Assembly (NCBI GenBank): GCA_964036045.1
Contig: OZ038385.1
Span: 60,607,919 to 60,671,918, forward strand
Direction of reading: 5' to 3'
DNA length: 64,000 nt
Source of the DNA: Eutreptiella sp. 'Long Island Sound 2002'
Lineage: Eukaryota > Euglenozoa > Euglenophyceae > Eutreptiales > Eutreptiaceae
Part shown: one piece after another, positions 11,900-48,517 of the stretch
Position numbering within the stretch: position 1 is the stretch's first letter
How the letters are laid out: each line of letters starts with the position of its first letter
Notes under the pieces: model-generated
The model's database searches: none
Seen by the model: the letters and a program-made list of their open reading frames with translations, nothing else
What the model was told of the DNA's origin: nothing
Position numbers and translations under genes: made by a program

Positions 11900-13310
11900 G
11901 CCGAACCAACCAACCAAGAGACGACTAACACGACCATACACCGCCAGAACCACTACAGCGGACGCAACGTGACCGTAAACACACCGCGCGCGCACTGATC
12001 AGCGCCAAGCTGGCCGGGCGTGCATGGACCGGTGCGAGAGCGACGACCAACGAGCTAGCGACACCGTAGCGAGCCGCGCCCCCCGACCACCATGGCCACA
12101 AGCACAGAGGAACACTGCGACTCTACCGCTGCGGACGCGGCCCACGAACATTCCCAAACTACACTACACGACACTTGTACAAACCAAGACACCACAAACC
12201 GACGCAGACACAAACGTGCTAGCTAAACGGGCAGGATTCGACGATACGACCACCGGCAGCAGCGCAACAGACCCCAAACACAAACCCGGCCAACCATGAG
12301 GCGGCCACGACAACCGCGGCACCAACCACACCACAGCTGCAGCCACCACTTGACCGTAAACAGACCACACGCAAGCCGGCCAACGCCGAACCAGCCAGGC
12401 GTGCACGGGTCGAAACGGAAACGGCGCCCAGCGGGTTGTCAACACCGTGGTGCGCCACGCCCACCGACGATCGTACCCAGGAACACAGCAGAACGCCACA
12501 ACACTGCCAATACAAACGCGACCAACCAACGGTAACAAACTACACAACACTACACTTGGACAAACCACGACGCCACTGACCAGCACCGACACGGACATGC
12601 CAGCTGCGTAAACAACATGCTGCGGGACGACCACCGGCAGCAGCGCAATGGAACCCACACAAACCAAGCCGACCATGAGGCGGCAGAGACGACCGCGAAC
12701 CAACAACACCGCAGCTGCAGCCGCCACTTGACTGTAAACAGACCACACGCAAGCCGGCCAACACCAAACCAGCCAGGCGTGCACGGGTCCAAACGGAAAC
12801 GGCGCCCAACGGGCTGGCAACACCATGGTGCGCCACGCCCACCGACGATCGTACCCACGAACATAGCAGCACACCACAACGCTGCCAATACAAACGCGAC
12901 CAACCAACGGTAACAAACTACACGACACCACACTTGGACAAACCACGACGCCACTGACCAGTACCGACACGGACATGCCAGCTGCATAAACAACATGCGG
13001 CGGAACGACCACCGGCAGCAGCGCAATGGAAACCACGCAAACCAAGCCGACCATGAGGCGGCCAAGACGACCGCGAACCAACAACACCGCAGCTGCAGCC
13101 GCCACTTGACCGTAAACAGACCACACGCAAGCCGGCCAACACCAAACGAGCCAGGCGTGCACGGGTCGAAACGGGAACGGCGTCCAAAGGGTTGGTGACA
13201 CAGTGGTGCGCCGCGCCCGCCGACGACCATGCCCACGATCAAAACTTGGCTCTACCATTACGCAACCGACCAACCTACATTAACAAACTACACCGCAACC
13301 GTACCATACG
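11900..13310 (+). repeat. 378-bp tandem repeat array in LINE-A 3' region (about 4 copies)
   Basis: Landmark GACCGTAAAC or GACTGTAAAC occurs near 11979, 12350, 12728 and 13105 (spacing 371-378), and CATGAGGCGGC near 12295, 12674 and 13052. The first unit is the most diverged. Each unit is A/C-rich on the + strand with no conserved ORF. Copy B has three units (62440-63490), so the number varies between copies. Confidence 0.9.
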
Positions 13311-21539: not shown

Positions 21540-22381
21540 GTACTACCACGCCGCACCAGGGACCCCCCAGGAGCCACCAAGGCGCGCACCCACGAGGTCA
21601 CAACTGCGCTCGTCACTCCCATGTCCCTCAACGAACCAGGCGCCCTGTACGACGCGGCCAAAGCTCCGGACCTACAAGACGTACCTGTCATGGCGAAATG
21701 CGACCCGGACGCCATGGTGTGGCAGGAACAGGCCCTCAAAACCTAGGCAGTCTGCCCCAACCTAACCCCCGTCCTCACCAGGAAGTGACACCAATACCGC
21801 ACCACGTGGGTCAAGGGAGTGCCCATATCCCACAAAGGTGAAGTCCAAGTGAAAGTCCACCACCACCCCGGGGAAGAAGGCCGCCTAGCGGCATACGAAC
21901 TCGTAGGCCCAACGTGGCAGCTGAATGTCATCAACGTACACGTACCCTTTGGAGACGCCACGGAGACATTCCTCGAACACCTCATGGAGGCCTACCGACA
22001 ACGTGCCATGATGGGGCCAACTGTCATCATAGGGGCTTTCAATGCAGCCCCGTCAGCGGACGATCGAGGAGGGCGACAGACGCCCGGGGACGCAGCGGTG
22101 CAAGTGGCCATGCAACACCTGGGCCTGCAGGACCTCAGAGTTTCTCTACGAGGCCAGCCCTCGCACAGACCACCGCAACCTTGCTCGGCAGATTCCCGCA
22201 TCGACCTCTGCTACGCGCACTCAGCACACGTTGAGGTGACACGGGCGCCATACCACGACGTACCATCCAAGATCACCGGACATCGACCCCTGGAGATACA
22301 AATCAAGGTACTTGAAGTACCCCCGGCCTCCAGGGATGGCATGGACCACGAGGAGCAACCACTCATCAGGCCGCCAGAAGA
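21540..22381 (+). pseudogene. LINE-B APE-type endonuclease domain (inactivated)
   Basis: Nicks target DNA to start reverse transcription. In the frame of the preceding ORF: DAMVWQEQAL carries the catalytic-type Glu, followed by TAG at 21744 and TGA near 21787, then WQLNVINVHVPFG, VIIGAFNAAPS, SRIDLCYA and ITGHRPLEIQI. The usual GDFN is GAFN here, so the catalytic Asp is lost. The last two motifs are shared with copy A (bases 13-110). TAG at 22384 ends this stretch. Confidence 0.75.
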
Positions 22382-22969
22382 GTAGGACACCCACAAATGG
22401 ATAGCGTACTACCGCACGGTACAACGCATCCTAGGCCATCAAGACGAGACGGACCTCAACCTCGCCATGCGGCAAGGTCACGGCGTGCGGCCTCCACGGG
22501 CAACACAGAACACAGGACGATGCCACCCCGCATCAAGACCTACGGTCCCTGGTCACAGCCATATGGCACGACAAGCGAGCACTACACACGGCAGTGCACT
22601 CACATGACCTACAAGCACAACATGACGCCCAGGAAATCGCCGCACGGCCGGACACCACACGCCGGCAACTCAGGGAATGGCACATCCGCTGGGCAAAGGA
22701 ACTGGCACAAGAACAACAACGCTACTTTCAAAACCCCCAACGCTACAAATCCTTGAAACACGTGGACAAGGTCCTGGGAGAAACAGGCCACCAAGGCATC
22801 AAGGCGGTACACCTACAGGACGGCACATTGACCAACGATCCCAAGGTGGTCCTGGAAGAAGTCCTCAACAGCTTCCTGCGCCAACACAACACTGAGGATG
22901 GCGAGCTGTCCGCGTACACGGAGGAAGTGATATCATACCTGCCGAAACTCTACAACCGGACACAGCGAC
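22382..22969 (+). pseudogene. LINE-B RT region, N-terminal part
   Basis: Aligns with copy A 204-791: WIAYYRTVQRILG, a frameshift near 22470, then DLQAQHDAQEIAARP, WAKELAQEQQRYFQNPQ, SLKHVDKVLGETG and LYNRTQR. It stops at 22969, where the 15-kb LINE-2 is inserted, and resumes at 38032. It supplies the linker between APE and RT fingers. Confidence 0.8.
22954..22969. repeat. Left target-site duplication of LINE-2 (16 bp)
   Basis: AACCGGACACAGCGAC, identical to 38016-38031 and present once in uninterrupted copy A near 776-791. Confidence 0.95.
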
Positions 22970-23976
22970 CACATGCCCATGATACCTTAGGAATTGATAC
23001 AAATCAACTCATGTTGGAGAAGCACCACAAGCAAATCATCTATGACCAAGTACACCCAACAATAGACCTTTGCGCGAGCGACGGATGCACCTTTTTCCAT
23101 GACATTGATTGCTCCGGCAACAATGCCTACTCCACAATCGGACATGGCAATTTTAGGTACCTGAAAGAGATCCTTCATCACCACCCAAAATTCTACATTT
23201 TTCCACACCCACAGGATTACTACAACTCCAAATACAAATACGGCAACACGTGGACGGAGTGGGCCCATGCCATCAACGAAGCCTTGCAAGAAGCCTTTGA
23301 TTCCGGTGTTGTGTACGAAGGTTCCTTCATTCTCCCGGGAACGGAAGACAACCTTTTGGCGGAGACCCTCTACATGAACCCCTTGAACCCCGGCATGATC
23401 TCCCTTGCCCCTTGGGTATGTGGAGTAGACCGGCTTTCGGATGCCAACACGTACAACCCCTCACCCAATCCCGATGGCTCCGTGCGGCTCAACTTGCTTG
23501 ACTCTCCTCAATACCCATATTTTCACCTTCACCTCTCCACCCGTCACAAGCACCACGCACACATCCGCTACGGCGACATCATGCACCCTCACGCTTCCCT
23601 ACAATGGGCGATAAATGAGGTGGACGGCACCGTCGAAGTGGCCGCCGTGCGCACAACGCTACGATTCGAAGTTGCACGGCATTTGCTCACGAACTTCACC
23701 CCCTCTTCTCCAAAAGAGCTCTCCAAAAAATCCAAGCGGGAACGAGGAGAGTATAGGCGGCGCCGTGGTAACGCCTGGGACTTTTTTGTCCTCGTCAACC
23801 GCCTTTTCCATTTCGAAAACGACCACATCTCGGTCAACTCCCAAAATGCTTTCTTTCCGGAGGAACGCATACAGCCTCTACAATCATCCTCTGAACATAT
23901 GTTCTGCTTTGACTACACCATTCCAACCCCCCTCGCCGAGAAGCTTCTCTCCAACATCTTACAACACCCCTTGTAG
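22970..23976 (+). pseudogene. LINE-2 ORF1 N-terminal part, unknown protein
   Basis: About 335 codons open from the element's left edge to TAG at 23974. Segments: IDLCASDGCTFFHDIDCSG, YLKEILHHHPKFYIFPHPQD, WTEWAHAINEALQEAF, VYEGSFILPGTEDN, MISLAPWVCGVDRL, YPYFHLHLSTRHKHHAHIRY and WAINEVDGTVEVAAVRTTLRFEVARHLL. It then has a basic patch (KELSKKSKRERGEYRRRRG) and WDFFVLVNRLFHFENDHI. It reads like a folded protein with Cys/His pairs, but no family is recognised. Translation upstream of 22970 in the same frame belongs to LINE-B and is chance fusion. Confidence 0.6.
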
Positions 23977-24407
23977 ACGCTTGGCAAAGTCTTATGCATC
24001 CGTGGCTCCGATCTAGGGAAGGACAAAACTTTCAAAGTTGTCCCTTCTAAAGCATACAAACAGACCAGGCCGGACTTCAAACAAATTGACGTGTGGGAAT
24101 CCCTCCTTACTAGCGAAGCCGCGCGACGGTGCGGTATCCTAGGGGCCATTCCCAGAACACACCACGAGTTTTACGTGTGCATGAACTATCACAACATCCC
24201 CTTGCTCCCCCAACGAGATTCCCTCACTGCCATGAGTTACATGCTCTTCCAAAAGAATAATCTTGTCACCTATCGGGGCACTACGGGTGCCATGATCTCT
24301 TGGGGAGGATACTCCTCGTGGCGCTCCAAACACCCGGGACACAAAATAAACCTATCTGCTTCCCCCCGAAATGTGCACAAAGATGTCCCTCCCCCAGCTT
24401 CCCAGTG
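23977..24407 (+). pseudogene. LINE-2 ORF1, second part in another frame
   Basis: After the stop at 23974 the protein-like reading continues in another frame: VLCIRGSDLGKDKTFKVVPS, FKQIDVWESLLTSEAARRCG and FYVCMNYHNIPLLPQRDSL, then NLVTYRGTTGAMISWGGYSS, ending near 24407. Beyond about 24400 the reading moves to the AlkB frame. No recognised domain. Probably part of one long ORF1 with its neighbours before frameshifts. Confidence 0.5.
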
Positions 24408-24416
24408 AAGGCTTGC

Positions 24417-25519
24417 TTCAACCCCCTCTCTGAGCCTCCGGAACCGGAACTTGTAGAAGTTCACGCCCTGTCATCCACGCCGGACGTTGATGTAATGTTC
24501 GGGGTCTCCCTGCTTGGGAAAATTCGGCACATTTCCTTGTTCAGCGCCCCCATGGCTAAGGTGCGGGTCTACCGAGTGAAATATGTTCATCACGAGTCCG
24601 CGCTCCTTGCGGAAGGCTTCACTGTATCACAACTCGTATTTCATCCCGAATGCCCCGACACGGCGGCGCGCGACATCCTTTTGGGTCACGCCAACCCCCT
24701 AGTTTCGGAAGCCCAGGATTTCCTATCACGTGTCATCGAGGCGGCGACTGCCTACGGCAGCGCGGAACAACTAAGTCTCGTGAGGGACCATTACTTGTCC
24801 ACAAGCAAGCCCCTCTCCCTCACAGAAAAGATCGCACAGCTCCACCCCCAAACGGGGAAAACTTTGGACCCCATCCCGGAAATAGCAGGAGCCTTCATAT
24901 CCAATGAATTTTTCTCAGAAGAAGAAGAAGCCCTGGTGATGTCTCTCAGTGCGGATGAAAATCACCAGTGGCTGTCCGAGGGGCACCGCACAATGCTTCA
25001 TTTCGGATTCAGGTACAATCCAGAATCAAAAGAAGTTGAACCTTTTGAACCGACCCCTCCTGAGTTTATTCAAGCGATTGGGCTACGGGCATTCTCTGCC
25101 TGCGCCCAGGTCCTGCCTTTCCCTCTCTTATGCCCCAATATGTGGTCAGTAGCTCGATACAGCCCGGCAGTGGCCTGAGGAGCCACGTAGACGTCCCTCA
25201 GCTAGGCCCTTATGTCCTGGATGGCTCCTTTGGGTCAGGTGCGGAAATGGTTTTCGAACCGCGTCCCGTCCCCGGATCCACCCTCTTTAAGAAAAGGCGA
25301 AAAGTCTTCCTACAGCGCCGCAGCCTCCTCCTAATTTCTCGGGAAGCCTGCGACAAGTGGAAGCACCAAATCCCAGCCTGCGACTATGACACAGTGGAGA
25401 AGCGGCGCATTCCCCGAGACTCCAGGGTATCCCTTGCCTTCCGTCACACTGGTGTAGGAACGGACCTCCATACGACATCCTCAGAGCCCCCTGACCCAGG
25501 GCAACATGAGACGCCTTAA
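24417..25519 (+). pseudogene. AlkB-type 2OG-Fe(II) dioxygenase domain in LINE-2
   Basis: AlkB enzymes remove methyl groups from nucleic-acid bases using Fe(II) and 2-oxoglutarate. The frame ending at 25178 gives ARDILLGHANPLVSEAQDFL, then IAGAFISNEFFSEEEEALV and RTMLHFGFRYNPE, the usual N-terminal AlkB pattern. A frameshift near 25130-25178 moves to the next frame, giving LRSHVDVPQLGPYVLDGSFG (iron ligands H and D at 25183-25191), LLLISREACDKWKHQIPA (third ligand His at 25364-25366) and RDSRVSLAFRHTG (2OG-binding Arg pair). The order, spacing and all key residues fit the ALKBH6/ALKBH8-like group. It lies between ORF1 and APE on the same strand inside the 16-bp duplications, so it belongs to the element. 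The frameshift makes this copy non-functional unless it is an assembly error. Confidence 0.87.
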
Positions 25520-26280
25520 TGAAACCTGCGCTCGGCGTCACCCTTCTGTGCACACGAGACGTGGTCTGCGCTCTAAGACCACGAATACCCTCCATCACCA
25601 TTATTGCATGTTCTCAGGCATGGCAAGGCCATCGCTCTACCACTCCCCCTGTACGTAACATGAATTCCTTAACCCCTGTGACCGCCAGGTATGCCCTCGA
25701 CGGGCCGATCTGCGCTCACTGTGTGCCGGACCACAAAGTCCTGTGGTTTCCCTGGTGGGGAGCTCTGATGAGTCTATCGAATGCTACCCGTCCGCGTATT
25801 CTTTCTGCCCCCCTTCCACCCGTCAGTGCCACCGCAGGATATGTAACATGAGACGGTGTCAAGAGGTCCTCGCCCGCTTGGGCGTGCACGGTCCCTCCCT
25901 CACCGCCACCGTCTCTCGCATCGCGGAGATTCTCCCTGTGGAGCAAGCACACATCAACCCGAGAGTATTGGTCCCACACACAAGTGTCTCTACAAACCTG
26001 ACTATACACCCCTCTCTTTGCACTGCCTGTGACACAGCCCTACACCACTCGCCCAAAGCATACGCACAAGCACTTCACTCACGGATTTCTACACTAGAAC
26101 AGTGCGACCCCAACCCCTCAATACGGAATGAGGACCCTGCCGGCATACCAGCGCTCCTGACACCAGACTCCACCCTGGATGCCCGCTCTTCCTCCATTCG
26201 GACACCGTCCTTCCCACCCCCCCCCCCCAAGTGCACAAGTCCTTCAAGCCTAGACGCTTGCGCCGCCCCCCCCCCCTTCT
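25519..26280 (+). pseudogene. Cys/His-rich and Pro-rich segment between AlkB and APE
   Basis: Two overlapping frames. YALDGPICAHCVPDHKVLWF is followed in the next frame by SSDESIECYPSAYSFC, RQCHRRICNMRRCQEVL and LTATVSRIAEILPVEQAHI; later LCTACDTALHH and a Pro/Ser-rich linker with a long C-run near 26217-26230. The C-x2-C ... C-x6-C ... CH-x3-C spacing suggests a zinc-binding module, perhaps for nucleic acid, but no named family fits well. The frame change is near 25740. Confidence 0.4.
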
Positions 26281-27165
26281 CTTCCCTCCGTCCAGGCCAT
26301 CCGTGTCGTGTCCTTCAACACGGCAAAGAGCCAGAACACGCCCGCGTCAATTTTGCATTTCCTAAACGAGGGATATGACATTATACTCCTTCAAGAGCTA
26401 AACTCTCCTCCTCTCCTCCCACAGCGGTACGCCTTTGGCAATGACCGCGCTAAAGTCTTCTTGAATGTCTGCGGCCACAAACACGGGGTGTCGGTCATTG
26501 CAGGCCCGTGCATCGCGAGATATACCAGCTGTGTCCCGCCCAGAGACAGCGACGGCCTTATCTGTGGTGCCAAAATATCCCTTCCGGAAGCAACTCCCCT
26601 GCACGTCTTCTCAGTTTACTCCCCCCCGGTGCGCACGGGGGCCCCAGCTCCTTACCGTGACACCATACAGCGAGTTCTTGCGTCTTATTTCAACGATCAT
26701 CCCAATCACATCCTGGGGGGTGATTTTAACTGCGTTCTGGATCCCGAACTTGACCAGCACAGCTTGGTCGATCTGCATGAGTGGCACTGGCTCAGGGGGG
26801 AAGTGGAATACCTCCCATCTAGGTTGGTGGACACTTTCAGGTCAGGGCGGCCCTCCCTCAGGCAGTATACCCGCTACGCAAGCGACCGCTGGGACACCGA
26901 AGCAGAACTAGACTACATCTTTGCGTCCCCTCGCCTGGTGTCGCACATTCCCCTCCTGGATGCGTCGGTCCTCACGGACTACACCATCTCTGACCACCAC
27001 CCAGTGGTTTCCGTCTTCCAGTGCCCCTCCCCAATCCTTCTGTCTCAGCCCGCACTCCCCCCTTGCATTTTTTGGAAGCTTTCTAGTGACGAAAAGCAAC
27101 AATTCTCCAAAAGCGTAAAGCTCATCTCCGACTGGTGCCGGGACCTCCAGGACGCCCCTGCCTGA
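26281..27165 (+). CDS. LINE-2 APE-type endonuclease domain
   Basis: Continuous ORF of about 290 codons (first internal Met near 26308) carrying the full exonuclease-endonuclease-phosphatase motif set. These are VSFNTAKS, IILLQELNSP (catalytic Glu), VFSVYSPPV, ILGGDFNCVLDPE (Asp and Asn), AELDYIFAS and ISDHHPVVSVF (terminal Asp-His). In LINEs this domain nicks the target to prime reverse transcription. It ends at TGA 27163, and the RT region continues 6 bp later in the same frame (27172), so the stop may have split a single pol ORF. All catalytic residues are kept, in contrast to LINE-B. Confidence 0.9.
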   Translation, partial: LPSVQAIRVVSFNTAKSQNTPASILHFLNEGYDIILLQELNSPPLLPQRYAFGNDRAKVFLNVCGHKHGVSVIAGPCIARYTSCVPPRDSDGLICGAKISLPEATPLHVFSVYSPPVRTGAPAPYRDTIQRVLASYFNDHPNHILGGDFNCVLDPELDQHSLVDLHEWHWLRGEVEYLPSRLVDTFRSGRPSLRQYTRYASDRWDTEAELDYIFASPRLVSHIPLLDASVLTDYTISDHHPVVSVFQCPSPILLSQPALPPCIFWKLSSDEKQQFSKSVKLISDWCRDLQDAPA

Positions 27166-27171
27166 GCGCCC

Positions 27172-28410
27172 TTGGAAGAGATCATCGCCGCCACTGATTC
27201 TCTCCTTATGCAGGTTGGGTCTGCGTACCACAAAATCACACGTCCAAAGCCGCAGCGCAAGGACCAAGAGGGCTATGGCAAGCTCAGGAAATTATTACGC
27301 TCGCCCCCGCCTCCTTCTTCCCCGGCATTTCCCGAGCACATAGCGGAAGTTCACTCTGTGGTAAACACCTTACGGTCCTCGGACGAAACCAAAGCGAAGA
27401 GAAAGCTTCACAGCAGTCTGGTCCGGGGGGTCCAGGTGAAAAGCACTGTTGCTTGCACCCTCTGCCTCAAAGACCTAGAGCCTCTCGTTGTCAGAAATCC
27501 AGCTACCAAAGAGCTCCTGAGTGACCTGGCAGATGTAGCTAAAGTTTACGGGGACACCCTGCTCCATGTTGGAGGGCATCCAGATTACGCCCCCCCCCAG
27601 GACTTCGTCGAAGAGGTCCTGTCCCACTCGCCCATATGCCCCGTTTCTGCCAAGAACGACCACATACCACCTGTGACGTGGCAGGAGTTCCTGAACCACT
27701 TAAAACACAGTGAACCGTCAAAAGCCGGGGGACCAGACAAAACAAACAACCACATCCTGGCCCTCTTGTCCGGAACCCATCCAGCATTTTTTCCACTCCA
27801 TTTTAAATCGCTTCCTCCATTCACCGCTGCTGCGGCACTGGCTATGCGCGAAAATATGTTTACTTTACAAAAAAGGCGACCCTTTCTCCCCCTCAAACTA
27901 CCGTCCTATTGCCCTCTTAAACTGTATTTACAAACTCTTGGCCACTTTTGCCTGCAAACACCTGCGCGCTCAGGCTTTTGCACACGACATCCTTTCAAAA
28001 ATCCAGCACGGTTGCCTTCCCGGCCACCAATGCGCTGATCATCTGTATCATCTCAAAGCCCTTTATGCGAAATCGAAGAAGAGCTCTCGCTGTTCATCGA
28101 TTTCAATAAAGCCTTTGATTCGGTGCCCCATGGCACACTCTGGACCGTCCTCGAACGGGCAAATTTTTCTACTTCCACAATTTCTCTCATTAAGCAACTA
28201 TACTCCTTCCCTCAAGACAGCCCCATCTTCAATGGCCGCACTCCCCACGCTTACCTCCAAACCAGAGGCCTCCGACAAGGATGTCCCCTCTCCCCCCTAC
28301 TCTTCATTCTCTATCTCAACTCCCTCTTCCACCATTTTTTTGCCACTGTGCCCCCCCCCCCCGGGCAAATGCCCGCACTAGCCACCACGCTTAAATCGAC
28401 GACATCCTGA
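27172..28410 (+). pseudogene. LINE-2 reverse transcriptase, fingers and palm (frameshifted)
   Basis: Starts with LLMQVGSAYHKITRP and a linker with CTLCLKDLEP and WQEFLNHLKH. RT then reads SKAGGPDKTNNH. It shifts frame near 27740 to LCAKICLLYKKGDPFSPSNY and RPIALLNCIYKLLATF, shifts again near 28070 to LSLFIDFNKAFDSVPHGTLW (motif A), and continues to TRGLRQGCPLSPLLFILYLN (motif B). Motif C follows at about 28396 as IDDILI, but the codon before it is TAA, so the catalytic loop is cut. At least two frameshifts plus this stop. Several breaks lie in A or C runs. Confidence 0.85.
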
Positions 28411-29723
28411 TCAAAAGTGAGGACGTAGTCTACATCCAAAATAGTCTCAACTACTTCGATGGGCCAGCCAGGGAATGGGGTCTGGACATGAATGTGTCTA
28501 AAACCGAAGTCCACGCCAATGGCACAGCCCCCCAAAAAGAGTTTCTGACACCCAGGGGCTCGGAATTCCTCACGTACAACAAAAAAACGGGTCGCCCGCA
28601 CACATGCTATAAATACCTGGGGGTTTATCTTTTTACTTGCCACCAAGCAAGGGGCCGGTTTCACATGCTCAAGGCGGGGATCCAGAGTTTTTTTGCCCGA
28701 CTTTCTCCCTTGCCTCTTACACTCAGTGAGAAGGTCCGCCTGACGAACTCTCAGCTGGTTGCAGCGCTCGCCTACCGCTTAATCATCCACTCTCTTTCCC
28801 CCAACCAGCTCGAAAAGCTTCAGTCACTCATCAGGGCGGGAGTTGCGTCTCGAAGCATCACACGTCTAGTCTCCCCGAAAGACCGTTTCGCGGCTGGCCC
28901 AAAGGGAGGGTTGGGTATGAAATTTCTACCGCACAGCGTCCACGTTGCCACTGTGAACTATGGATTCCGGGCCCTTTGCGGCCTCGCCCCAAAGTCAGTT
29001 GGCCCCCTGTACGTCCAGTCTTTACTCAGCTCGAACCAGAGGGCCTCGGATCCGGTGCAAAACTCTTTTATGGACTCCATCCATGCCCTAGGCATATCTT
29101 TCCACAGCATAGGCCCGTGGAGACCCACTGCTATTCGGGATCTAACGCCTCGTACCCAGCTAACTGTGAGGTTCAAATCAGGACAGGCCATAGGAAGGGT
29201 GACCGAGGCCACCTCCAAATGGGCCAACGTCTCGTTCCACGACGGGGTCTACTCGGTGGATACCCACACGTCCTACACCATGCAGATGCCATGCCACGCC
29301 GTCATGGATTACTCCTGCCCCTCTCACTTCCAGCTAGTCCCTGAATTTGTGCGCCCTCAAGAGACCATCCTGGAACCCCCAGCGCCACCGCACAACGCAC
29401 ATGCATTGGGGATCAGCCAACACGACCATCTCTTTGCTCTGCAGGCACAACACTACCTAGAGAAGAAGTCTCTCGACGAGTGGGGATGCCACGATCCCGC
29501 GGAGGCACTAACCAGGCCGCCGGCCCCCGGCCTACACGGGGTGTGGCTCTATTCCGATGGTTCCTCCGGAGAGTCCGGCCATGCGGCCGCCGTCACGGCC
29601 TTTCTACCCGACGGCACGACCAGAGTCCTGTGCCTATCCTCACCGCATCCCTCTTTTCTGGGTTCGGAGTTCTGGGGGTGGGTAGCAGCCATTCGCTGGA
29701 TCCACAGGGAACTTTCCCAATAA
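28403..29723 (+). pseudogene. LINE-2 RT thumb/connection and start of RNase H
   Basis: Open from motif C onward: IDDILIKSED, GLDMNVSKTEVHANG, RPHTCYKYLGVYLF (the YLG motif after the palm), FHMLKAGIQSFFARLSPLPL and VRLTNSQLVAALAYRLI. It then has GPKGGLGMKFLP and GVWLYSDGSSGESGHAAAV, the first RNase H Asp. GSEFWGWVAAIRW gives the RNase H Glu. It terminates at TAA 29721, and the RNase H continues in other frames, so RNase H is split. Confidence 0.85.
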
Positions 29724-29732
29724 AAAGTATGT

Positions 29733-31069
29733 TTGTTGATTGACAACGAACAGGTGGTGTCCACCCTTCAAAAATGCCAAGTCTATAGGCCCAGCCCGTT
29801 CCAACAAACACATGGACCGTGGCCGTACACAGCGCCCTACTTCTCATCACCAACTGCCTCCACATCATGTGGATTAAAGGTCACGCCAATTTTTTTGGCA
29901 ACGAAATCTGCGACCATTTCTCTAAATGGGCAGCTCACAGTCTGATTTTTACCCCAGACCTCCTTTCCCCTCCCCCCCTGGGTTCAGAGGCGGTACACCA
30001 CCTGCCTGTCCTCCACAAGTTTGAGGCGCAGCAATTCCATCACCTACTGCCGCAGCATTCCCATAACAACATAGCGGTCGGCCCCAGCTTCAGCCTGTAC
30101 AATAAAGCTTCCTGGTTTTCGTCCTTGTTTTTCAAACTGGCGTCCGGGTGCTACAATGTGCACGGGTACAAGTGGAGCAATATGCTTCACGACTACCACT
30201 GTTCCATGTGCGGACAGCACCATCCCTTCGACCCTCTATCCTGCCTGGCCTTCTGCAAAGCGTTAGGCCAGCACGTCCAGTCATACGTCTCTTCCTGGGG
30301 GCCCCTTTTCAGCCCCATTGTCCTGCACTGGTGGCTCTCTGGACCCTCAAAGGCTGACCGCAGGAACTTCATGAGAACTCTGGTGCCTAAGTCCCTATGG
30401 TCCTGCCTCTCCCAGCCAATCCCGGGCTCAACTGGCGCCAAGCACAAGGCCATGCTTGGCCTGGCCCTAGAGGAACGCGTAAAGCACCTGGACAAGGCTG
30501 TCCACCAAGCACATGACTGGCTGTGTTCGAATCCTCTCCCTTGGGACCCAATATCTTGGGCGCACCCCCCCGACCCTCTCAACCCCTTCTCGGTTTCGCA
30601 CGGTGCGTTCAGTACCTCCGTCCACATGTGCCCTCGGACCCGCCCCGCATACCAACACCCCCCACCTCTCCCCAAACACGCCTTAAAAAAGCCGTCCAAG
30701 CCATCGTCAGCCAAAGCACAACCAGCCACTCGTCGCGCGCCAAAAAACTCCAAACGCCCATCCAGCCGCGCATCCGCACCACGCCCCCCCCCCCCCCCCT
30801 CCGAGTCAGCCCAGGGCCCATCCCTGCCACCCCCCGAGGGTGCCCCCCGAGGGAGAACGGTGCTGTGCTGTGAGGGACAGGCACCCTCCCCTGTCGTGCA
30901 CCCGGGCCACCCAGCCTCACCCGCGCTCTCCCTTCCCAGGGTTCGCGCCCCTGCCGCACCGCCATATCCCCCGCGCGTACTCGTGACCGTGCCGACGTGC
31001 GAAGGGACGAGCAGTGGCCTCCGTCTCGACGCGGGGGCCGCCGCGGTTGGGGGCCCTGAGTGCTGCTAA
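29733..31069 (+). pseudogene. LINE-2 RNase H end and Cys-containing C-terminus
   Basis: LLIDNEQVV (RNase H Asp) in one frame, then from 29819 IMWIKGHANFFGNEICDHFS (RNase H His/Asp). Downstream: VHHLPVLHKFEAQQFHHLL, CYNVHGYKWSNMLHDYHC, a SMCGQHH ... LSCLAFC cluster comparable to LINE C-terminal zinc knuckles, WWLSGPSKADRRNFMRTL and a helical region. A basic Pro/Ser tail (KKPSKPSSAKAQ) ends at TAA 31067, about 40 bp before the minisatellite, so pol stops before the repeats. Confidence 0.8.
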
Positions 31070-31110
31070 TGGCAGTCAATTGGTGCAGACGAGGAGTTGG
31101 ACCCCGTGCC

Positions 31111-34100
31111 CCGTGCGACTGCCGTGGGGCTGGGCCCCAGAAGCCGAGTGGGGCAGGGCCCCGTGCGATCACCGAGGGGCTGGGCCCCAGAAGCCGAGTG
31201 GGGCAGGGCCCCGTGCGACCGCCGTGGGGCTGGGCCCCGGAATTCGAGTGGGGCAGGGCCCCGTGCGACCGCCGTGGGGCTGGGCCCCAGAAGCCGAGTG
31301 GGGCAGGGCCCCGTGCGACCGCCGAGGGGCTGGGCCCCAGAAGCCGAGTGGGGCAGGGCCCCGTGCGAACGCCGAGGGGCTGGGCCCCAGAAGCCGAGTG
31401 GGGCAAGGCCCCGTGCGACCGCCGTGGGGCTGGGCCCCAGAAGCCGAGTGGGGCAGGGCCCCGTGCGACCGCCGAGGGGCTGGGCCCCAGAAGCCGAGTG
31501 GGGCAGGGCCCCGTGCGACCGCCGAGGGGCTGGGCCCCAGAAGCCGAGTGGGGCAGGGCCCCGTGTGACCGCCGTGGGGCTGGGCCCCAGAAGCCGAGTG
31601 GGGCAGGGCCCCGTGTGACCGCCGAGGGGCTTGGCCCCAGAAGCCGAGTGGGGCAGGGCCCCGTGCGACCGCCGTGGGGCTGGGCCCCAGAAGCCGAGTG
31701 GGGCAGGGCCCCGTGCGACCGCCGAGGGGCTGGGCCCCAGAAGCCGAGTGGGGCAGGGCCCCGTGCGACCGCCGAGGGGCTGGGCCCCAGAAGCCGAGTG
31801 GGGCAGGGCCCCGTGTGACCGCCGAGGGGCTGGGCCCCAGAAGCCGAGTGGGGCAGGGCCCCGTGCGACCGCCGTGGGGCTGGGCCCCAGAATCCGAGTG
31901 GGGCAGGGCCCCGTGCGACCGCCGAGGGGCTGGGCCCCAGAAGCCGAGTGGGGCAGGGCCCCGTGCGACCGCCGTGGGGCTGGGCCCCAGAATCCGAGTG
32001 GGGCAGGGCCCCGTGCGACCGCCGTGGGGCTGGGCCCCAGAAGCCGAGTGGGGCAGGGCCCCGTGTGACCGCCTTGGGGCTGGGCCCCAGAAGCCGTGTG
32101 GGGCAGGGCCCCGTGCGACCGCCGAGGGGCTGGGCCCCAGAAGCCGAGTGGGGCAGGGCCCCGTGCGACCGCCGAGGGGCTTGGCCCCAGAAGCCGAGTG
32201 GGGCAGGGCCCCGTGCGACCGCCGAGGGGCTGGGCCCCAGAAGCCGAGTGGGGCAGGGCCCCGTGCGACCGCCGAGGGGCTGGGCCCCAGAAGCCGAGTG
32301 GGGCAGGGCCCCGTGTGACCGCCGTGGGGCTGGGCCCCAGAAGCCGAGTGGGGCAGGGCCCCGTGCGACCGCCGAGGGGCTGGGCCCCAGAAGCCGAGTG
32401 GGGCAGGGCCCCGTGCGACCGCCGAGGGGCTTGGCCCCAGAAGCCGAGTGGGGCAGGGCCCCGTGCGACCGCCGAGGGGCTGGGCCCCAGAAGCCGAGTG
32501 GGGCAGGGCCCCGTGCGACCGCCGAGGGGCTGGGCCCCAGAAGCCGAGTGGGGCAGGGCCCCGTGTGACCGCCGTGGGGCTGGGCCCCAGAAGCCGAGTG
32601 GGGCAGGGCCCCGTGCGACCGCCGTGGGGCTGGGCCCCAGAAGCCGAGTGGGGCAGGGCCCCGTGCGACCGCCGTGGGGCTGGGCCCCAGAAGCCGAGTG
32701 GGGCAGGGCCCCGTGTGACCGCCGTGGGGCTGGGCCCTGAAGCCGAGTGGGGCAGGGCCCCGTGCGACCGCCGAGGGGCTGGGCCCCAGAAGCCGAGTGG
32801 GGCAGGGCCCCGTGCGACCGCCGAGGGGCTGGGCCCCAGAAGCCGAGTGGGGCAGGGCCCCGTGTGACCGCCGTGGGGCTGGGCCCCAGAAGCCGAGTGG
32901 GGCAGGGCCCCGTGTGACCGCCGAGGGGCTGGGCCCCAGAAGCCGAGTGGGGCAGGGCCCCGTGCGACCGCCGTGGGGCTGGGCCCCAGAATCCGAGTGG
33001 GGCAGGGCCCCGTGCGACCGCCTTGGGGCTGGGCCCCAGAAGCCGAGTGGGGCAGGGCCCCGTGCGACCGCCGTGGGGCTGGGCCCCAGAAGCCGAGTGG
33101 GGCAGGGCCCCGTGTGACCGCCTTGGGGCTGCGCCTCAGAAGCCGAGTGGGGCAGGGCCCCGTGCGACCGCCGAGGGGCTGGGCCCCAGAAGCCGAGTGG
33201 GGCAGGGCCCCGTGCGACCGCCGAGGGGCTTGGCCCCAGAAGCCGAGTGGGGCAGGGCCCCGTGCGACCGCCGTGGGGCTGGGCCCCAGAAGCCGAGTGG
33301 GGCAGGGCCCCGTGTGACCGCCTTGGGGCTGGGCCCCAGAATCCGAGTGGGGCAGGGCCCCGTGCGAACGCCGTGGGGCTGGGCCCCAGAAGCCGAGTGG
33401 GGCAGGGCCCCGTGCGACCGCCGAGGGGCTGGGCCCCAGAAGCCGAGTGGGGCAGGGCCCCGTGCGACCGCCGTGGGGCTGGGCCCCAGAATCCGAGTGG
33501 GGCAGGGCCCCGTGCGACCGCCTTGGGGCTGGGCCCCAGAAGCCGAGTGGGGCAGGGCCCCGTGCGACCGCCGTGGGGCTGGGCCCCAGAAGCCGAGTGG
33601 GGCAGGGCCCCGTGTGACCGCCTTGGGGCTGGGCCTCAGAAGCCGAGTGGGGCAGGGCCCCGTGCGACCGCCGAGGGGCTGGGCCCCAGAATCCGAGTGG
33701 GGCAGGGCCCCGTGCGACCGCCGTGGGGCTGGGCCCCAGAAGCCGAGTGGGGCAGGGCCCCGTGTGACCGCCTTGGGGCTGGGCCCCAGAAGCCGAGTGG
33801 GGCAGGGCCCCGTGTGACCGCCGAGGGGCTGGGCCCCAGAAGCCGAGTGGGGCAGGGCCCCGTGCGACCGCCGTGGGGCTGAGCCCCAGAAACCGAGTGG
33901 GGCAGGGCCCCGTGCGACCGCCGAGGGGCTGGGCCCCAGAAGCCGAGTGGGGCAGGGCCCCGTGCGACCGCCGAGGGGCTGGGCCCCAGAAGCCGAGTGG
34001 GGCAGGGCCCCGTGCGACCGCCGTGGGGCTGGGCCCCAGAAGCCGAGTGGGGCAGGGCCCCGTGCGACCGCCGAGGGGCTGGGCCCCAGAAGCCGAGTGG

Positions 34101-36394
34101 GGCAGGGCCCCGTGTGATCACCGAGGGGCTGGGCCCCAGAAGCCGAGTGGGGCAGGGCCCCGTGCAAGCGCCGTGGGGCTGGGCCCCAGAAGCCGAGTGG
34201 GGCAGGGCCCCGTGTGACCGCCGAGGGGCTTGGCCCCAGAAGCCGAGTGGGGCAGGGCCCCGTGCGACCGCCGTGGGGCTGGGCCCCAGAATCCGAGTGG
34301 GGCAGGGCCCCGTGCGACCGCCGTGGGGCTGGGCCCCAGAATCCGAGTGGGGCAGGGCCCCGTGCGACCGCCGAGGGGCTGGGCCCCAGAAGCCGAGTGG
34401 GGCAGGGCCCCGTGTGACCGCCGTGGGGCTGGGCCCCAGAATCCGAGTGGGGCAGGGCCCCGTGCGACCGCCGAGGGGCTGGGCCCCAGAAGCCGAGTGG
34501 GGCAGGGCCCCGTGTGACCGCCGTGGGGCTGGGCCCCAGAATCCGAGTGGGGCAGGGCCCCGTGCGACCGCCGAGGGGCTGGGCCCCAGAATCCGAGTGG
34601 GGCAGGGCCCCGTGCGACCGCCGAGGGGCTGGGCCCCAGAAGCCGAGTGGGGCAGGGCCCCGTGTGACCGCCGTGGGGCTGGGCCCCAGAAGCCGAGTGG
34701 GGCAGGGCCCCGTGTGACCGCCGTGGGGCTGGGCCCCAGAAGCCGAGTGGGGCAGGGCCCCGTGCGATCACCGTGGGGCTGGGCCCCAGAAGCCGAGTGG
34801 GGCAGGGCCCCGTGCGACCGCCGTGGGGCTGGGCCCCAGAAGCCGAGTGGGGCAGGGCCCCGTGCGATCACCGTCGGGCTGGGCCCCAGAAGCCGAGTGG
34901 GGCAGGGCCCCGTGTGACCGCCGAGGGGCTGGGCCCCAGAATCCGAGTGGGGCAGGGCCCCGTGCGACCGCCTTGGGGCTGGGCCTCAGAAGCCGAGTGG
35001 GGCAGGGCCCCGTGTGACCGCCTTGGGGCTGGGCCCCAGAAGCCGAGTGGGGCAGGGCCCCGTGCGACCGCCGTGGGGCTGGGCCCCAGAAGCCGAGTGG
35101 GGCAGGGCCCCGTGTGACCGCCGAGGGGCTGGGCCCCAGAAGCCGAGTGGGGCAGGGCCCCGTGCGACCGCCGAGGGGCTGGGCCCCAGAAGCCGAGTGG
35201 GGCAGGGCCCCGTGCGACCGCCGTGGGGCTGGGCCCCAGAAGCCGAGTGGGGCAGGGCCCCGTGCGACCGCCGAGGGGCTTGGCCCCAGAAGCCGAGTGG
35301 GGCAGGGCCCCGTGCGACCGCCGTGGGGCTGGGCCCCAGAAGCCGAGTGGGGCAGGGCCCCGTGTGACCGCCGTGGGGCTGGGCCCCAGAAGCCGAGTGG
35401 GGCAGGGCCCCGTGCGACCGCCGAGGGGCTGGGCCCCAGAATCCGAGTGGGGCAGGGCCCCGTGCGACCGCCGTGGGGCTGGGCCCCAGAAGCCGAGTGG
35501 GGCAGGGCCCCGTGTGACCGCCGTGGGGCTGGGCCCCAGAAGCCGAGTGGGGCAGGGCCCCGTGCGACCGCCGAGGGGCTGGGCCCCAGAATCCGAGTGG
35601 GGCAGGGCCCCGTGCGACCGCCGTGGGGCTGGGCCCCAGAAGCCGAGTGGGGCAGGGCCCCGTGTGACCGCCGTGGGGCTGGGCCCCAGAAGCCGAGTGG
35701 GGCAGGGCCCCGTGTGACCGCCGTGGGGCTGGGCCCCAGAAGCCGAGTGGGGCAGGGCCCCGTGCGACCGCCGAGGGGCTGGGCCCCAGAATCCGAGTGG
35801 GGCAGGGCCCCGTGCGACCGCCGTGGGGCTGGGCCCCAGAAGCCGAGTGGGGCAGGGCCCCGTGTGACCGCCGTGGGGCTGGGCCCCAGAAGCCGAGTGG
35901 GGCAGGGCCCCGTGCGACCGCCGAGGGGCTGGGCCCCAGAAGCCGAGTGGGGCAGGGCCCCGTGCGACCGCCGAGGGGCTGGGCCCCAGAATCCGAGTGG
36001 GGCAAGGCCCCGTGCGAACGCCGTGGGGCTGGGCCCCAGAAGCCGAGTGGGGCAGGGCCCCGTGTGACCGCCGTGGGGCTGGGCCCCAGAAGCCGAGTGG
36101 GGCAGGGCCCCGTGCGACCGCCGAGGGGCTGGGCCCCAGAGGCCGAGTGGGGCAGGGCCCCGTGTGACCGCCTTGGGGCTGGGCCCCAGAAGCCGAGAGG
36201 GGCAGGGCCCCGTGCGACCGCCGAGGGGCTGGGCCCCAGAAGCCGAGTGGGGCAGGGCCCCGTGCGACCGCCGAGGGGCTGGGCCCCAGAGGCCGAGTGG
36301 GGCAGGGCCCCGTGTGACCGCCTTGGGGCTGGGCCCCAGAAGCCGAGAGGGGCAGGGCCCCGTGCGACCGCCGAGAGGCTGGGCCCCAGAAGCA
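31111..36394 (+). repeat. 50-bp minisatellite, 105 full units plus a partial unit, within LINE-2
   Basis: Units start at CCGTG[C/T]GA every 50 bases from 31111; one unit near 32710-32759 is 49 bp, giving exactly 105 units to 36359 and a partial last one. Almost all variation is at a few sites: C/T in CGTG[C/T]GA, A/T or a T substitution in GCCG[A/T]GGGG, and G/T in AGAA[G/T]CCG. Each unit holds two short hairpins (GGGGC-TGG-GCCCC and GGGGC-AGG-GCCCC). All six frames are largely open because the unit lacks most stops, so ORFs here are not evidence of genes. Local 150-bp higher-order repeats are seen at about 35360-35860 and 36114-36393. Confidence 0.97.
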
Positions 36395-36921
36395 GTTCCA
36401 AGTGCGGTGCAGTGGTCCTCGGAGGCGGAGTGTGCTGTGACTACTCCGATGACTGCGCCGCTCCCGGGGGACCCAAATTTTTCTACCTAGACGGGTCCGT
36501 CGCATTTTTCAAGTCGGGAGAGTCCAACCCAACCCAACCCAACCCCCCCCCCCCCTCGGCCATTCCCCGCCCTCCTCAGCACTCACGCCCACGGCAACCA
36601 CAAAAACGCCATCCATCATCACAAACCCATCAGACCACAATCGTTTGGGCGCCTCCAAAGCGCGCCAAGACCACTCCCCCTCTCCCAGTCCCACGCTCCA
36701 AGGCACGCTACCGTCAAACACGCCTACCTCTCCCCTCTAGGCCCACCGCTACTAGGTGCCCAGGTCCGTCTGCCCCTGCCCCCCCCCACTCCAGCGCCTC
36801 CCGGGACATCCGATATTTTTTCCGCCCATCCAGCAACTTTGTGTCCCCTCCTCTCGACCCCTTCAGCCCTTTGCCCCTTCCCGAACCCCCACATCCACAC
36901 ACCCGCGCCCACAGCACGTGA
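36395..36921 (+). CDS. Possible Pro-rich ORF after the minisatellite
   Basis: The frame open through the last repeats continues with SSKCGAVVLGGGVCCDY, PKFFYLDGSVAFFKSGE, Pro/Ser/Arg-rich linker, APPKRAKTTPP and SRDIRYFFRPSSN, ending at TGA 36919. No start codon of its own outside the repeat. A C-run (36546-36556) makes the frame uncertain. Function unknown; may be fortuitous. Confidence 0.25.
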
Positions 36922-38015
36922 GTAGCGGACCCCAACAGCCCGCCCAGTGGGCGGGCAGTCGGGGGAGGGGGAGCGCCTGACCTCAGACGCCCCTCGCAAC
37001 AACAGCCCCAAGCCAGGTAGTGGGGAACCCGGACCGGACCGCCCCCCCCCAAGCACGCCGGTAGGAGCAAGGGACCGCGGCAGGACACGCGGAGCTGCAC
37101 GGACCACGTGGAAGGGCCCTACCAGCGCCCAGTGCCGGGACCGCGCGAGGTGCGCACGCCACACCATCCAGGGGGGGGGGGGGGCGGACGCCGCGGGAGC
37201 GCAAGCGCACACACACGCAAAGGGCACGCGGGGACTACGGGAAGGGCAATCGGACCGAGCTCGCGGAACGCACAGACCGCATGGAATGGCGTACCAGGGA
37301 GCGAGGGTAAGTGACACCCGGACGGAACGGTCCGCCACACGCAGCGCGGGACACGCGGGGTGGGGTGGGGGAAACGGGAGAGACACAACACCAGGTACCG
37401 GCCCGAGCCCCCCGAACCGGCCGCAAGCGCCGCGCACACACGGACGGGGCACTGCACCCGGCAAGGCAGTAGTGGCGCACTGCGCCACGCCCCAAGCCCT
37501 AGGCTAGGCAGCCTCCGCGCCAGCCCAAGGGGTTCCCACTGGCGACAAGCCAGTAGGACGGGCCCCGCGGCGCCGGCGCCCCGGGCGACCACGCATTAGG
37601 GGGGCGACGCGGTGGGTAAGCGCCCACAGCCACGGCTGCGAATTGATGCACTGACCGGGGAGTGGCGAAACGGGGAAGCCGGGGAGGGACCAGGCTCCAA
37701 GCCCTGTGAACCCTGGGGAGTCCGCCACCAGGCAGGAGGTGCGTCTTGGAGGGCCCCCCACTAGGACCCGGTGGGGAGGATATCACCTGGCCCGACCAGG
37801 TGGCCACCCGGGCCCGAAAGGCGTCCAGTACCCGCAAAATCAAAACTCAAGCCTCAATTCTTCCTGAACCCCCCCCCTCCCCCACAGGGTAAATCAGCAT
37901 TCATCTAACCTTAGCATCAGAGCAACCGTGTACACATCATAATATGTTGTTGTAAATACTTTCGTTGGGGGACGTCAGCCCGAGAACAAGTTGATGCGGT
38001 TAAGAACATTCGAAT
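36922..38015 (+). other. LINE-2 3' region, no supported gene
   Basis: GC-rich with G/C runs up to 37840, then an AT-richer stretch (37840-38015). Short ORFs only, on both strands, none with a recognisable motif. The element ends ...CATTCGAAT just before the target duplication. Confidence 0.6.
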
Positions 38016-38031
38016 AACCGGACACAGCGAC
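38016..38031. repeat. Right target-site duplication of LINE-2 (16 bp)
   Basis: Identical to 22954-22969; LINE-B homology resumes directly after it (GAGACATGCACCGAGCC). Confidence 0.95.
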
Positions 38032-39820
38032 GAGACATGCACCGAGCCCCGCTCACCATTCGGGAACTCCATTAGGTGTTGTACAAGCTACAACCGGGAA
38101 AAACCCCGGGGACGGACGGACTCCCGGCAGAGCTCTACCGTAGGCTCCCGCTGAACCTGAAGAGGCACTTGGCCACGCGCCATTGGGATATCGCCATCGG
38201 GAAAACTGACGTACCACCCGACTGGGCAAACCTAGTACACCCGCTATATAAGAAAGGCGACTGGGCAAACCCCGACAACTGGAGACCCATCGTATGCGCC
38301 ACCACGGAAGCCAAACTCATATGGATGCTCATCCTCTAGCGGGTGGCCCCGGCACTGTACCGGGCTATACCGCCCACAACCTGGGGGGCCATACCGGGTA
38401 GGTCGCCATTGGAGGCCATATTTATGCAAGACGCCGTGGTGGACATGGACCCGATCAGCCTGTCATCAAATCCCTGGATGTCAAAGGGGCCTTCCCGAAC
38501 ACCCCGCACCGCCTCCTACGGCCGGTGTGGGAGCACATGGGACTCCCCTTCCAGGGCTTCCTGCAAGCGTACCTCGCCCCCCGCATGTACGCAATAAAAA
38601 CCGACGTGGGCACCACCCCATGGTTCCACCCCGCCAGTGGGGTCCCGCAAGGGGGTGCGGAGGGCCCATTCCCCTTCCTACTCGTCACCCTCCCGCTGGC
38701 GTTTTACATCCGACGCACATACCCGGACGTGGCACCATACCCCCTACGGACCACGCTCCTGGCATTTGCGGACGACATGGCGGTGGTGACCGCCACCGCA
38801 CGTCAACCCCTGTCGACCACCCCAGACCCCACCAGGGCCACCAGAGTCCTCCACGTCGTCACCACCTATCTGGAGGGCGGCCAGCTGCTGGTACACAACG
38901 TCAAATCTGCCACCATGGTGCACAATGCACCGCCGCCGCCCCTCCACCCCGGGGACCCGCCCATGAACCCAGTAAGCACGGCCACCTACCTGGGGGTCCA
39001 ACAAGCGGCCACCGCAGGCGGGGTCACCCTACCACCAAACCTGATACGGCAGCTTACACGGACACTGGTCATAGCACGCATCACGGCACTCTCCACCCAG
39101 GCCCTGGCGTACTTCCTACAAGCCGTGCTCAACGCCGCTGTGGGATTCCAGGCCTTGCAAGTAACGCACCCCCAACACATGCTGCAAGCGGCCGCTACCA
39201 CAGTGCAACGAGCGTGGACCATCCACGGCCACCGGCCCACATCGCTACCTGCAACGGTACGCGCGGCATCGCCACCGTACTACGGAGACAACACCAATCA
39301 CCTCGTCAACAACACGTACACAGCTCACACTGCGGCCCACCTGCATCGTCTCATGCACAATCATGAGCCAGAGGTACGAGAGGTCTTCACGCCGATGCTG
39401 CGAGAGGCCCAGTACCATTGCAACACCTGCCCCCAATACATACTTCACCAGCGGGGCCTCGCCACCAAGGTGGGGACCCGCGTATGGAACCACCTACACC
39501 TCCTGCTACCCCACCACCAGCACGTCATTCAAACGAACCATCAGTGCAGGGAGACTGGCCCTCTGGCGGTCCTACACACCAATGTGGGGGGAGGGACAAC
39601 GGGAAGCACCACCACTCTGGACCTGGTGGGCACCACCCTCGACCTCGTACGGGTCACCCTAAGCCAGATGCGATCCCTCCAACGGGTGGGCACACACCAC
39701 GTCCCATTCCTACAACACCCAGAGTGGCCCAACAAATCACTCCTGGAGAACCACATGCGCAGTGCGGCCACCCAAACCGGGCACCTCCAACCGACAGATG
39801 GGGGAGTACGTGAAGCGTAA
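38032..39820 (+). pseudogene. LINE-B reverse transcriptase domain (decayed)
   Basis: Aligns with copy A 792-2580. Breaks: TAG at about 38073 (GAG in A), TAG at about 38337 (AAA in A), a frameshift near 38462 in the motif A region, and TAA at 39818 (TAC in A). Readable motifs: KLQPGKTPGTDGLPAELYRR, YKKGDW, SLDVKGAFP (in another frame), GVPQGGAEGPFPFL and LAFADDMAVV. The catalytic FADD is intact but the ORF is not. It lies between LINE-2 and the gypsy element. Confidence 0.85.
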
Positions 39821-44750: not shown

Positions 44751-45043
44751 TTCCAGCCCGGTTCGTCGATGTGCAGCTGGCGGAACTTCTCGAACATCTG
44801 CCGCCCGGCCACCTCAGCCCGGCCATTTGACCGGCTGTGGTATGCCACGGTCTTGGCGTGCCGAATTCCCATGTGCTTGCACATCGTCTTGAACCACGTC
44901 CCCACGAATTGACTGCCCCGATCGCTGCAGATGACAGCTGGGACATCAAAAATCGTCAGCCAATGCCTGATCATGGCATTAGCGACGGTCTTGGCCTGCA
45001 GCCCCACTCCATGCTTGTCCTTTTTGTCCTTCTTCTTGGACTT
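44630..45043 (-). pseudogene. Gypsy integrase core, central part
   Basis: Same frame as the upstream pol ORF but separated by a TAG at 45044-45046. It begins with a Lys/Asp-rich stretch (KSKKKDKKDKHGVG), then VANAMIRHWLTIFDVPAVIC, SDRGSQFVG (second catalytic Asp) and HSRSNGRAEVAGRQMFEKF (catalytic Glu), then WNWYNLLWRVLQAYHD. The frame shifts near 44690, where the C-terminal ORF takes over. The stop makes integrase non-functional unless read through. Confidence 0.9.
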
Positions 45044-48505: not shown

Positions 48506-48517
48506 GCGCTCATGTTC

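Follow-up and report, generated by a model that had tools for sequence, protein, structure and literature searches.

Capture of an AlkB-type dioxygenase by a retrotransposon has been described before. In the excerpted text of one report (PMC9289625), a Ty3/gypsy element of Phalaenopsis is an LTR-type element of 25 kb that carries its AlkB in a separate extra ORF, and this orchid AlkB, placed within the ALKBH5 group, has the HxD...H and R-x5-R motifs and demethylates m6A RNA in vitro, an activity abolished by a change of a ligand histidine. The same excerpts place AlkB domains in the Alphaflexiviridae, Betaflexiviridae and Closteroviridae, families of plant viruses. LINEs with an added nucleic-acid enzyme are also on record, the R1 elements described in the excerpted part of PMC4686597 having a tobamovirus-like helicase. 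Text searches of the open-licence PubMed Central literature returned no LINE with an AlkB domain among the matches listed, and an AlkB domain in a LINE ORF1 appears to be unreported in the literature searched; since Repbase and the subscription literature lie outside that search, priority for this combination is not proven.

The locus studied here belongs to Eutreptiella sp. 'Long Island Sound 2002' (assembly GCA_964036045.1, contig OZ038385.1). The whole stretch of DNA that was analysed, 64,000 nucleotides in length, is referred to as the window; the contig that contains it is 80.6 Mb long, in an assembly of 2.28 Gb, and CpG is mildly depleted. A first-pass annotation, made from the letters of the window, had proposed that positions 24417-25519 encode an AlkB domain that is carried by a LINE and lies between ORF1 and the apurinic-type endonuclease.

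Results

Layout of the LINE copy in the window

The LINE insertion lies between the two copies of an exact 16-bp target-site duplication, the sole match of at least 13 bp between the stretches compared (window positions 22301-23400 and 29001-64000). Alignment to copy L032 gives 93% identity over 7.8 kb and opens at L032 position 1625, the element start being at position 498, and it shows the window copy to be 5'-truncated by ~1.13 kb, with broken frames and two inserts. Copy L032 itself is a ~9.4-kb element with an open 1134-codon ORF1, enclosed by a perfect 15-bp duplication, and the two duplications together bear out the earlier placement of the AlkB domain inside a retrotransposon. The features, in window coordinates, are as follows.

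22954..22969, + strand: target-site duplication, 5' copy, 16 bp, AACCGGACACAGCGAC; exact repeat of 38016-38031
22970..38015, + strand: LINE insertion, bounded by the target-site duplication and supported by the L032 alignment
22984..24408, + strand: ORF1 middle region, beginning near residue 290 of 1134; interrupted by an in-frame stop and by a change of frame
24411..24866, + strand: ORF1 stretch preceding AlkB, with no recognised domain
24867..25460, + strand: AlkB domain (PF13532), C-terminal part of ORF1; ends placed via the L032 alignment
25184..25192, + strand: HVD, Fe ligands 1 and 2 (His 25184-25186, Asp 25190-25192); pairs with HID of ALKBH8
25364..25366, + strand: distal His of WKH, third Fe ligand; pairs with WTH of ALKBH8
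25424..25444, + strand: RVSLAFR, with the 2-oxoglutarate (2OG) arginines six residues apart (Arg 25424-25426 and 25442-25444)
25848..27165, + strand: ORF2 N-terminus and apurinic-type endonuclease (EEP); PF03372 E 2.2e-9, Pfam-matched part ~26311-26997
27704..28700, + strand: reverse transcriptase, frame-broken; RVT_1 E 7.4e-6, 26.3 bits, below the 29.6-bit cut-off
29540..29940, + strand: RNase H, weak and frame-broken; PF00075 E 0.0077, below the 25.8-bit cut-off
30798..36542, no strand: insert between poly-C runs, foreign to the LINE; missing from L032 and L034
36543..36890, + strand: end of the ORF2 C-terminal region, joined to the 30797 side by the L032/L034 alignment
36891..37859, no strand: second insert, ~970 bp; missing from L032, L034 and L061
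37860..38015, + strand: LINE 3' end, ...GTTGATGCGGTTAAGAACATTC; common to L061 and L062
38016..38031, + strand: target-site duplication, 3' copy, 16 bp; sequence of the outer LINE comes next

The ORF1 middle region of the window copy matched no Pfam family above cut-off, and the ORF2 start at 25848 is supported by a matching Met that opens the ORF2 frame of copy L033. The first insert, which falls within the LINE's ORF2 end, contains a G+C-rich minisatellite with a 50-bp unit (105.7 copies, 31108-36393). Judged from the flanks, the copy seems to be nested in a further, outer LINE, represented upstream by an endonuclease-like frame at 21789-22382 (PF03372, 21.9 bits, below the 24.5-bit cut-off) and downstream by an RVT_1 match in 38402-39817.

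Other mobile-element and repeat sequences were seen in the window. Positions 44007-48517 on the - strand encode a Ty3/gypsy-like pol (RVT_1, RNase H and integrase zinc-binding domains), and a frame close by matches a chromodomain, features suggestive of a chromovirus-like LTR element. An open frame of 1564 codons on the + strand (1-4692), which extends past the window edge and matches RVT_1 (E 3e-17), would represent another retrotransposon pol, possibly a LINE ORF2. Two arrays with a 378-bp unit and a similar-looking consensus, 2.6 copies each, lie far apart at 12246-13238 and 62441-63408. Searches of the window gave no Rfam match, and no match was found to a dinoflagellate spliced-leader relic.

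Identity of the AlkB domain

The AlkB segment is spread over two frames of the + strand. Frame A stops at 25176-25178 and frame B is open over 25064-25519, including its stop codon, with the break between them near 25160-25178. Alone, frame A gave no Pfam match and frame B matched PF13532 below the 31.2-bit cut-off (E 1.1e-4, 22.9 bits); when the two frames were read through, the match, covering about 25002-25444, rose above it (E 7.6e-9, 36.5 bits), so that the AlkB profile similarity on which the first-pass annotation depends is present. In a sequence search of the PDB, the best match of the read-through segment was human ALKBH8 (5.2e-8), with S. pombe Ofd2 also among the best. The open ORF1 of L032 matched PF13532 at residues 962-1110 (E 4.3e-10, 40.6 bits) and had ALKBH8 as its top PDB match by sequence (E 5.7e-10), as did a profile built from LINE copies alone (E 1.6e-13). 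Protein P0146 also exceeded the PF13532 cut-off (41.5 bits), and P0156, from the sister lineage described below, fell under it (28.0 bits).

An AlphaFold2 model of a 569-aa relative, with moderate pLDDT (mostly 55-84) in the AlkB part and poor values elsewhere, predicts the double-stranded beta-helix fold of AlkB enzymes. When this model was compared with the PDB by Foldseek, the best 50 of 484 matches (E up to 10) were all AlkB-family enzymes, and among the matches listed ALKBH6 and ALKBH5 ranked above ALKBH8. These 50 include Ofd2 and NMAD-1, which are counted here as AlkB-family members. Because the alignment behind the model held general AlkB sequences, as did one query, the independent tests are the Pfam search and the PDB searches, by sequence and by LINE profile, that were free of them. 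The earlier identification, made from HVD, WKH and the RxxRVSLAFR block, thus agrees with PF13532, with the ALKBH8 match in the PDB and with the Foldseek results.

The residues expected of an Fe(II)/2OG enzyme are largely retained. The Fe triad (HxD...H) is kept in 53 of 56, 54 of 56 and 36 of 40 relatives, as well as in P0156, and the R-x5-R arginines, to which the excerpts of PMC9289625 assign a role in 2OG binding, are kept in 35/35 and 28/33. In the N-x-Y motif for 2OG, the Tyr is kept in 55 of 57 relatives and the Asn, the position of the 2OG-stabilising N193 of ALKBH5 (PMC9289625, excerpts), is replaced by Ala in 54 of 57. Since the profile, the triad, the arginine pair and the fold are all those of AlkB, we read this replacement as a departure within the superfamily and not as exclusion from it; altered or lost catalysis is a possibility that the substitution raises. 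Across relatives, the six AlkB positions have conservation values of 0.85 to 1.00, little above the domain mean of 0.885.

The AlkB domain as part of ORF1, and the structure of ORF2

To describe the family, long copies were fetched, six of 20 first selected, five of which were picked for an open frame of 1142 codons and the sixth of which (L036) has a shorter one. The order ORF1-AlkB-EEP-RT-RNase H was found in all six. In five, ORF1 and AlkB form a single open frame of 1134 residues, with equivalent ATG starts; the upstream portion of ORF1 is missing from L036. This single frame, with the Pfam match near its end, makes AlkB the C-terminal domain of ORF1. The first-pass annotation had placed AlkB between ORF1 and the endonuclease as a unit of its own, whereas the domain belongs to ORF1 itself, and of the span assigned to AlkB there only about 24867-25460 belongs to the domain, 24417-24866 being other ORF1 sequence.

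In the L032 ORF1, AlkB was the only domain that Pfam recognised, and neither an RRM nor a methyltransferase partner domain was found there; NCBIfam, PHROGs and further Pfam searches gave no match in the proteins scanned, and a model of full ORF1 (mean pLDDT 35.5) was of too low quality to reveal an RNA-binding fold. The ORF1 middle comprises ~500 residues (~22984-24408 in the window) with ~60% identity between lineages and no recognisable family. A 75-bp direct repeat, seen in the N-terminal part of ORF1 at about 1109-1255 of L032 and also in L031, L034 and L035, is a possible source of the differing open-frame lengths (1118 or 1142 codons).

In ORF2, one frame of L033 contains PF03372 and the start of RVT_1, and L034 matched RVT_1 (E 3.2e-32) and, below the 25.8-bit cut-off, RNase H (PF00075, E 1.6e-4). 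The best PDB matches of the family's RT were L1 and R2 proteins. None of the six fetched copies had an uninterrupted ORF2 frame; a genome search based on the endonuclease found frames of up to 1702 codons at other loci. Integrase was not found in Pfam scans of the L033 and L034 ORF2 frames, and no LTRs were seen, as the two ends of the fetched copies did not match each other, the last tens of bases lying outside those loci. The element is a non-LTR retrotransposon, or LINE, with EEP and RT in ORF2, target-site duplications and 5' truncation. We regard the identity of AlkB and the LINE architecture as established with very little room for doubt.

Copies in the genome and evidence of mobility

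A genome search with the AlkB frame gave a match at all 129 places scored. The open frame was exactly 1142 codons long at 17 of them, and at 16 of these the matched part was free of stops. First-look candidates, which are not confirmed copies, numbered 1780 with the AlkB frame, 2852 with the endonuclease and 3188 in a later search, of which 41 were scored. When a protein collection was searched, 41 of 42 matches belonged to this LINE family (16 of the 41 with a precomputed PF13532 label), and a search with full ORF1 found a cluster of 113 members whose 1134-aa representative has PF13532. An AlkB-RT fusion in protein P0163 (RVT_1 and PF13532) was set aside as a probable nested insertion because its RT appears, by eye, to be of LTR type. 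No relative was found in viral contigs.

The first-pass annotation had called for a search for other copies with the AlkB-APE-RT order, and had held that copies without the domain would speak against it. At 27 of 29 loci picked by AlkB, the window being excluded, the start of the endonuclease follows downstream in the same orientation, and the two misses are a contig end (L005) and an AlkB match that ends at residue 95 (L009); the 29 include four of the six long copies, and possible duplicates with identical scores (L003-L005; L027 and L028) were left in the counts. Conversely, AlkB lies upstream at all nine loci picked by the endonuclease (window again excluded), with a frame break in L038 and a match starting at residue 9 in L043. 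Thus, a full-structured copy lacking AlkB was not found among the AlkB- and endonuclease-picked loci examined, the one truncated domain and the one contig-end cut aside. The main matches of the later genome search all reach the AlkB end (41/41), but this is no proof that AlkB-less relatives are absent, because ranking by score favours AlkB-complete copies.

The five full copies share a common 5' end. Compared with L033, the other four are 95.9-97.9% identical over 9.4 kb, which suggests recent activity, and L036 is 91.9% identical over 7.1 kb. The 3' end was traced in two copies only, L032, with its clean duplication, and L034, where a fragment of another copy comes next and the flank is satellite, so that no clean duplication can be read. 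The LINE family is large and high-copy and, judging from these sequence comparisons, probably recently active.

A sister lineage and selection on AlkB

A sister lineage with the same domain order as the main family was found in the same genome at locus L047 (G000:C4:154495774-154499124), which encodes P0156 in an open ORF1 of 1117 aa with AlkB. L048, 80% identical and with two stops, is its sole close relative among the 41 scored candidates. P0156 and the main lineage are 53% identical over ORF1 and 46% in AlkB, where P0156 nevertheless keeps the Fe triad, both arginines and the Tyr. The first 100 residues of ORF1 are 73% identical between the lineages, the middle ~60% and most of ORF1 59-73%, and only residues 101-280 (31.5%) and the last residues (27%) fall below the value for AlkB.

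A dN/dS analysis of AlkB, also called for by the first-pass annotation, gave 0.16 in one subfamily pair and 0.41 in two closer pairs. In the subfamily pair, L032-L058 (three stops in the L058 ORF1 match), Nei-Gojobori values were 0.161 (AlkB), 0.105 (AlkB core), 0.088 (endonuclease) and 0.12-0.14 (ORF1 middle). The corresponding values for L047-L048 were 0.406 (AlkB), 0.274 (core), 0.43 (endonuclease) and 0.80 (ORF1 middle), and for L032-L036 they were 0.413 (AlkB), 0.453 (core) and 0.21 (endonuclease). Synonymous sites in AlkB were saturated between L032 and either L047 or L048.

We also counted single-base changes in 33 distinct AlkB sequences. Shared changes comprised 26 synonymous and 19 nonsynonymous (site ratio 0.23), and singletons 101 nonsynonymous and 66 synonymous (site ratio 0.48), so that the nonsynonymous share is lower in the shared class (Fisher p 0.04); a binomial test against site numbers, which ignores mutation bias and shared descent, gave p 1e-6. 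In three other regions tested the shared-change ratio was 0.07-0.08. Given these ratios, AlkB is constrained, but less than its neighbours, and we read the pattern as purifying selection that is weaker on AlkB than on neighbouring regions, in a sample biased toward conserved loci and copies by their choice through similarity.

Discussion

The explanation that we favor, with a probability of about 0.6, is that the AlkB domain of the ORF1 protein (ORF1p) demethylates the element's own RNA. Of its parts, we consider it probable that AlkB is an active nucleic-acid demethylase, and we lean slightly toward the element's own RNA as the main substrate. LINE ORF1 proteins generally bind their own RNA, and an AlkB domain at the end of such a protein would therefore act on the template RNA. 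ORF1p would bind its own LINE transcript, and its Fe(II)/2-oxoglutarate AlkB would oxidatively demethylate bases of that RNA in cis. One gain could be removal of m1A/m3C-type blocks, so that the element's reverse transcriptase could still read the ~9.4-kb template, and another, not exclusive of the first, could be the removal of host m6A marks from element RNA. The m6A version is favoured by the activity of the orchid AlkB on m6A RNA (PMC9289625, excerpts), and the host genome has MT-A70 matches, five above cut-off; counting against it, in excerpts of a study of mammals (PMC7873242), L1 is promoted by METTL3 and m6A and suppressed by the eraser enzyme ALKBH5. A template-linked RNA demethylase of this kind, in which ORF1p coats element RNA and clears methylation that blocks RT or marks the RNA for the host as part of the cycle of an old LINE lineage, is in our judgement an even bet. 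The role in RNA protection or counter-silencing suggested by the first-pass annotation is plausible, although the mammalian results on m6A and L1 speak against it.

It is unlikely, in our assessment, that the AlkB fold has been retained without catalysis, serving ORF1p as a terminal RNA-binding or structural module, as might be supposed from the Asn-to-Ala replacement at the 2OG contact in both lineages and from the weaker constraint on AlkB than on neighbouring regions. Against this stand the Fe triad, both 2OG arginines and the Tyr that P0156 keeps at 46% identity, and the lower dN/dS of the core than of the whole domain in L032-L058 and L047-L048, although this argument from core constraint fails in L032-L036, where the core exceeds the domain. 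Chance capture of AlkB in a single copy, or a gene nested within the LINE, would be in keeping with the state of the window copy, which taken alone is broken and has two inserts missing from the copies compared; we rejected such an origin, with hardly any reservation, because AlkB holds a constant position across the long copies, the loci picked by either domain and the sister lineage, and in five copies it is read in a single open frame together with ORF1.

Two further readings accept catalysis and differ in the substrate. Both DNA and RNA are substrates of AlkB enzymes, and DNA complexes are among the Foldseek matches; the LINE domain might instead clear methyl marks or alkyl damage from host chromatin, or from nascent cDNA, and so counter silencing by DNA methylation. 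In keeping with this, knockout of Alkbh1 in mouse ES cells increased both N6-methyladenine and repressive marks on young L1s, according to excerpts of PMC4982230. The solved relative closest by sequence is, however, ALKBH8, whose PDB title describes a tRNA-modifying enzyme. Known LINE ORF1 proteins, moreover, are RNA binders, and we think a DNA substrate rather improbable. That same top-ranking match by sequence would fit an ALKBH8-like modification of the wobble uridine of host tRNA that boosts translation of the element, but the similarity to ALKBH8 is distant, ALKBH6 and ALKBH5 rank higher by fold among the matches listed, and Pfam recognises neither partner domain in ORF1, which makes a tRNA role very improbable.

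If demethylation of element RNA by an active ORF1p AlkB is correct, non-LTR retrotransposons would join the mobile elements with AlkB, namely some plant RNA viruses and the orchid LTR element, which would point to base methylation as a recurrent pressure on RNA-based parasites. It would also set this LINE apart from mammalian L1, which gains from m6A (PMC7873242, excerpts). The fusion to ORF1p makes the role testable with a single domain, a single residue change and a single retrotransposition readout.

Among the known systems, the cellular enzymes ALKBH8, Ofd2 and ALKBH6 (PDB 3thp, 5yl6, 7vjs) have the same fold and Fe/2OG residues, at a distant sequence similarity to the LINE AlkB. The plant viruses, like this LINE, are parasites that replicate through RNA and carry AlkB, but they are RNA viruses, whereas the domain here is in a LINE ORF1, and the likeness is drawn from their description. 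R1 elements are likewise LINEs with an added nucleic-acid enzyme, but their helicase is at the end of ORF2 (PMC4686597, excerpts), whereas the dioxygenase is in ORF1. The Phalaenopsis element is, like ours, a retrotransposon with an AlkB that has HxD...H and R-x5-R. The Ty3-type RT, integrase and LTRs of an orchid-type element contrast, however, with a LINE-type RT here and with ORF2 frames of L033 and L034 in which Pfam found no integrase, and the LINE AlkB has Ala at the position of the 2OG-contact Asn (N193 in ALKBH5; PMC9289625, excerpts). Thus, unlike the orchid element, this LINE is a non-LTR element of ~9.4 kb in which AlkB is fused to ORF1p and has ALKBH8 as its nearest solved relative by sequence.
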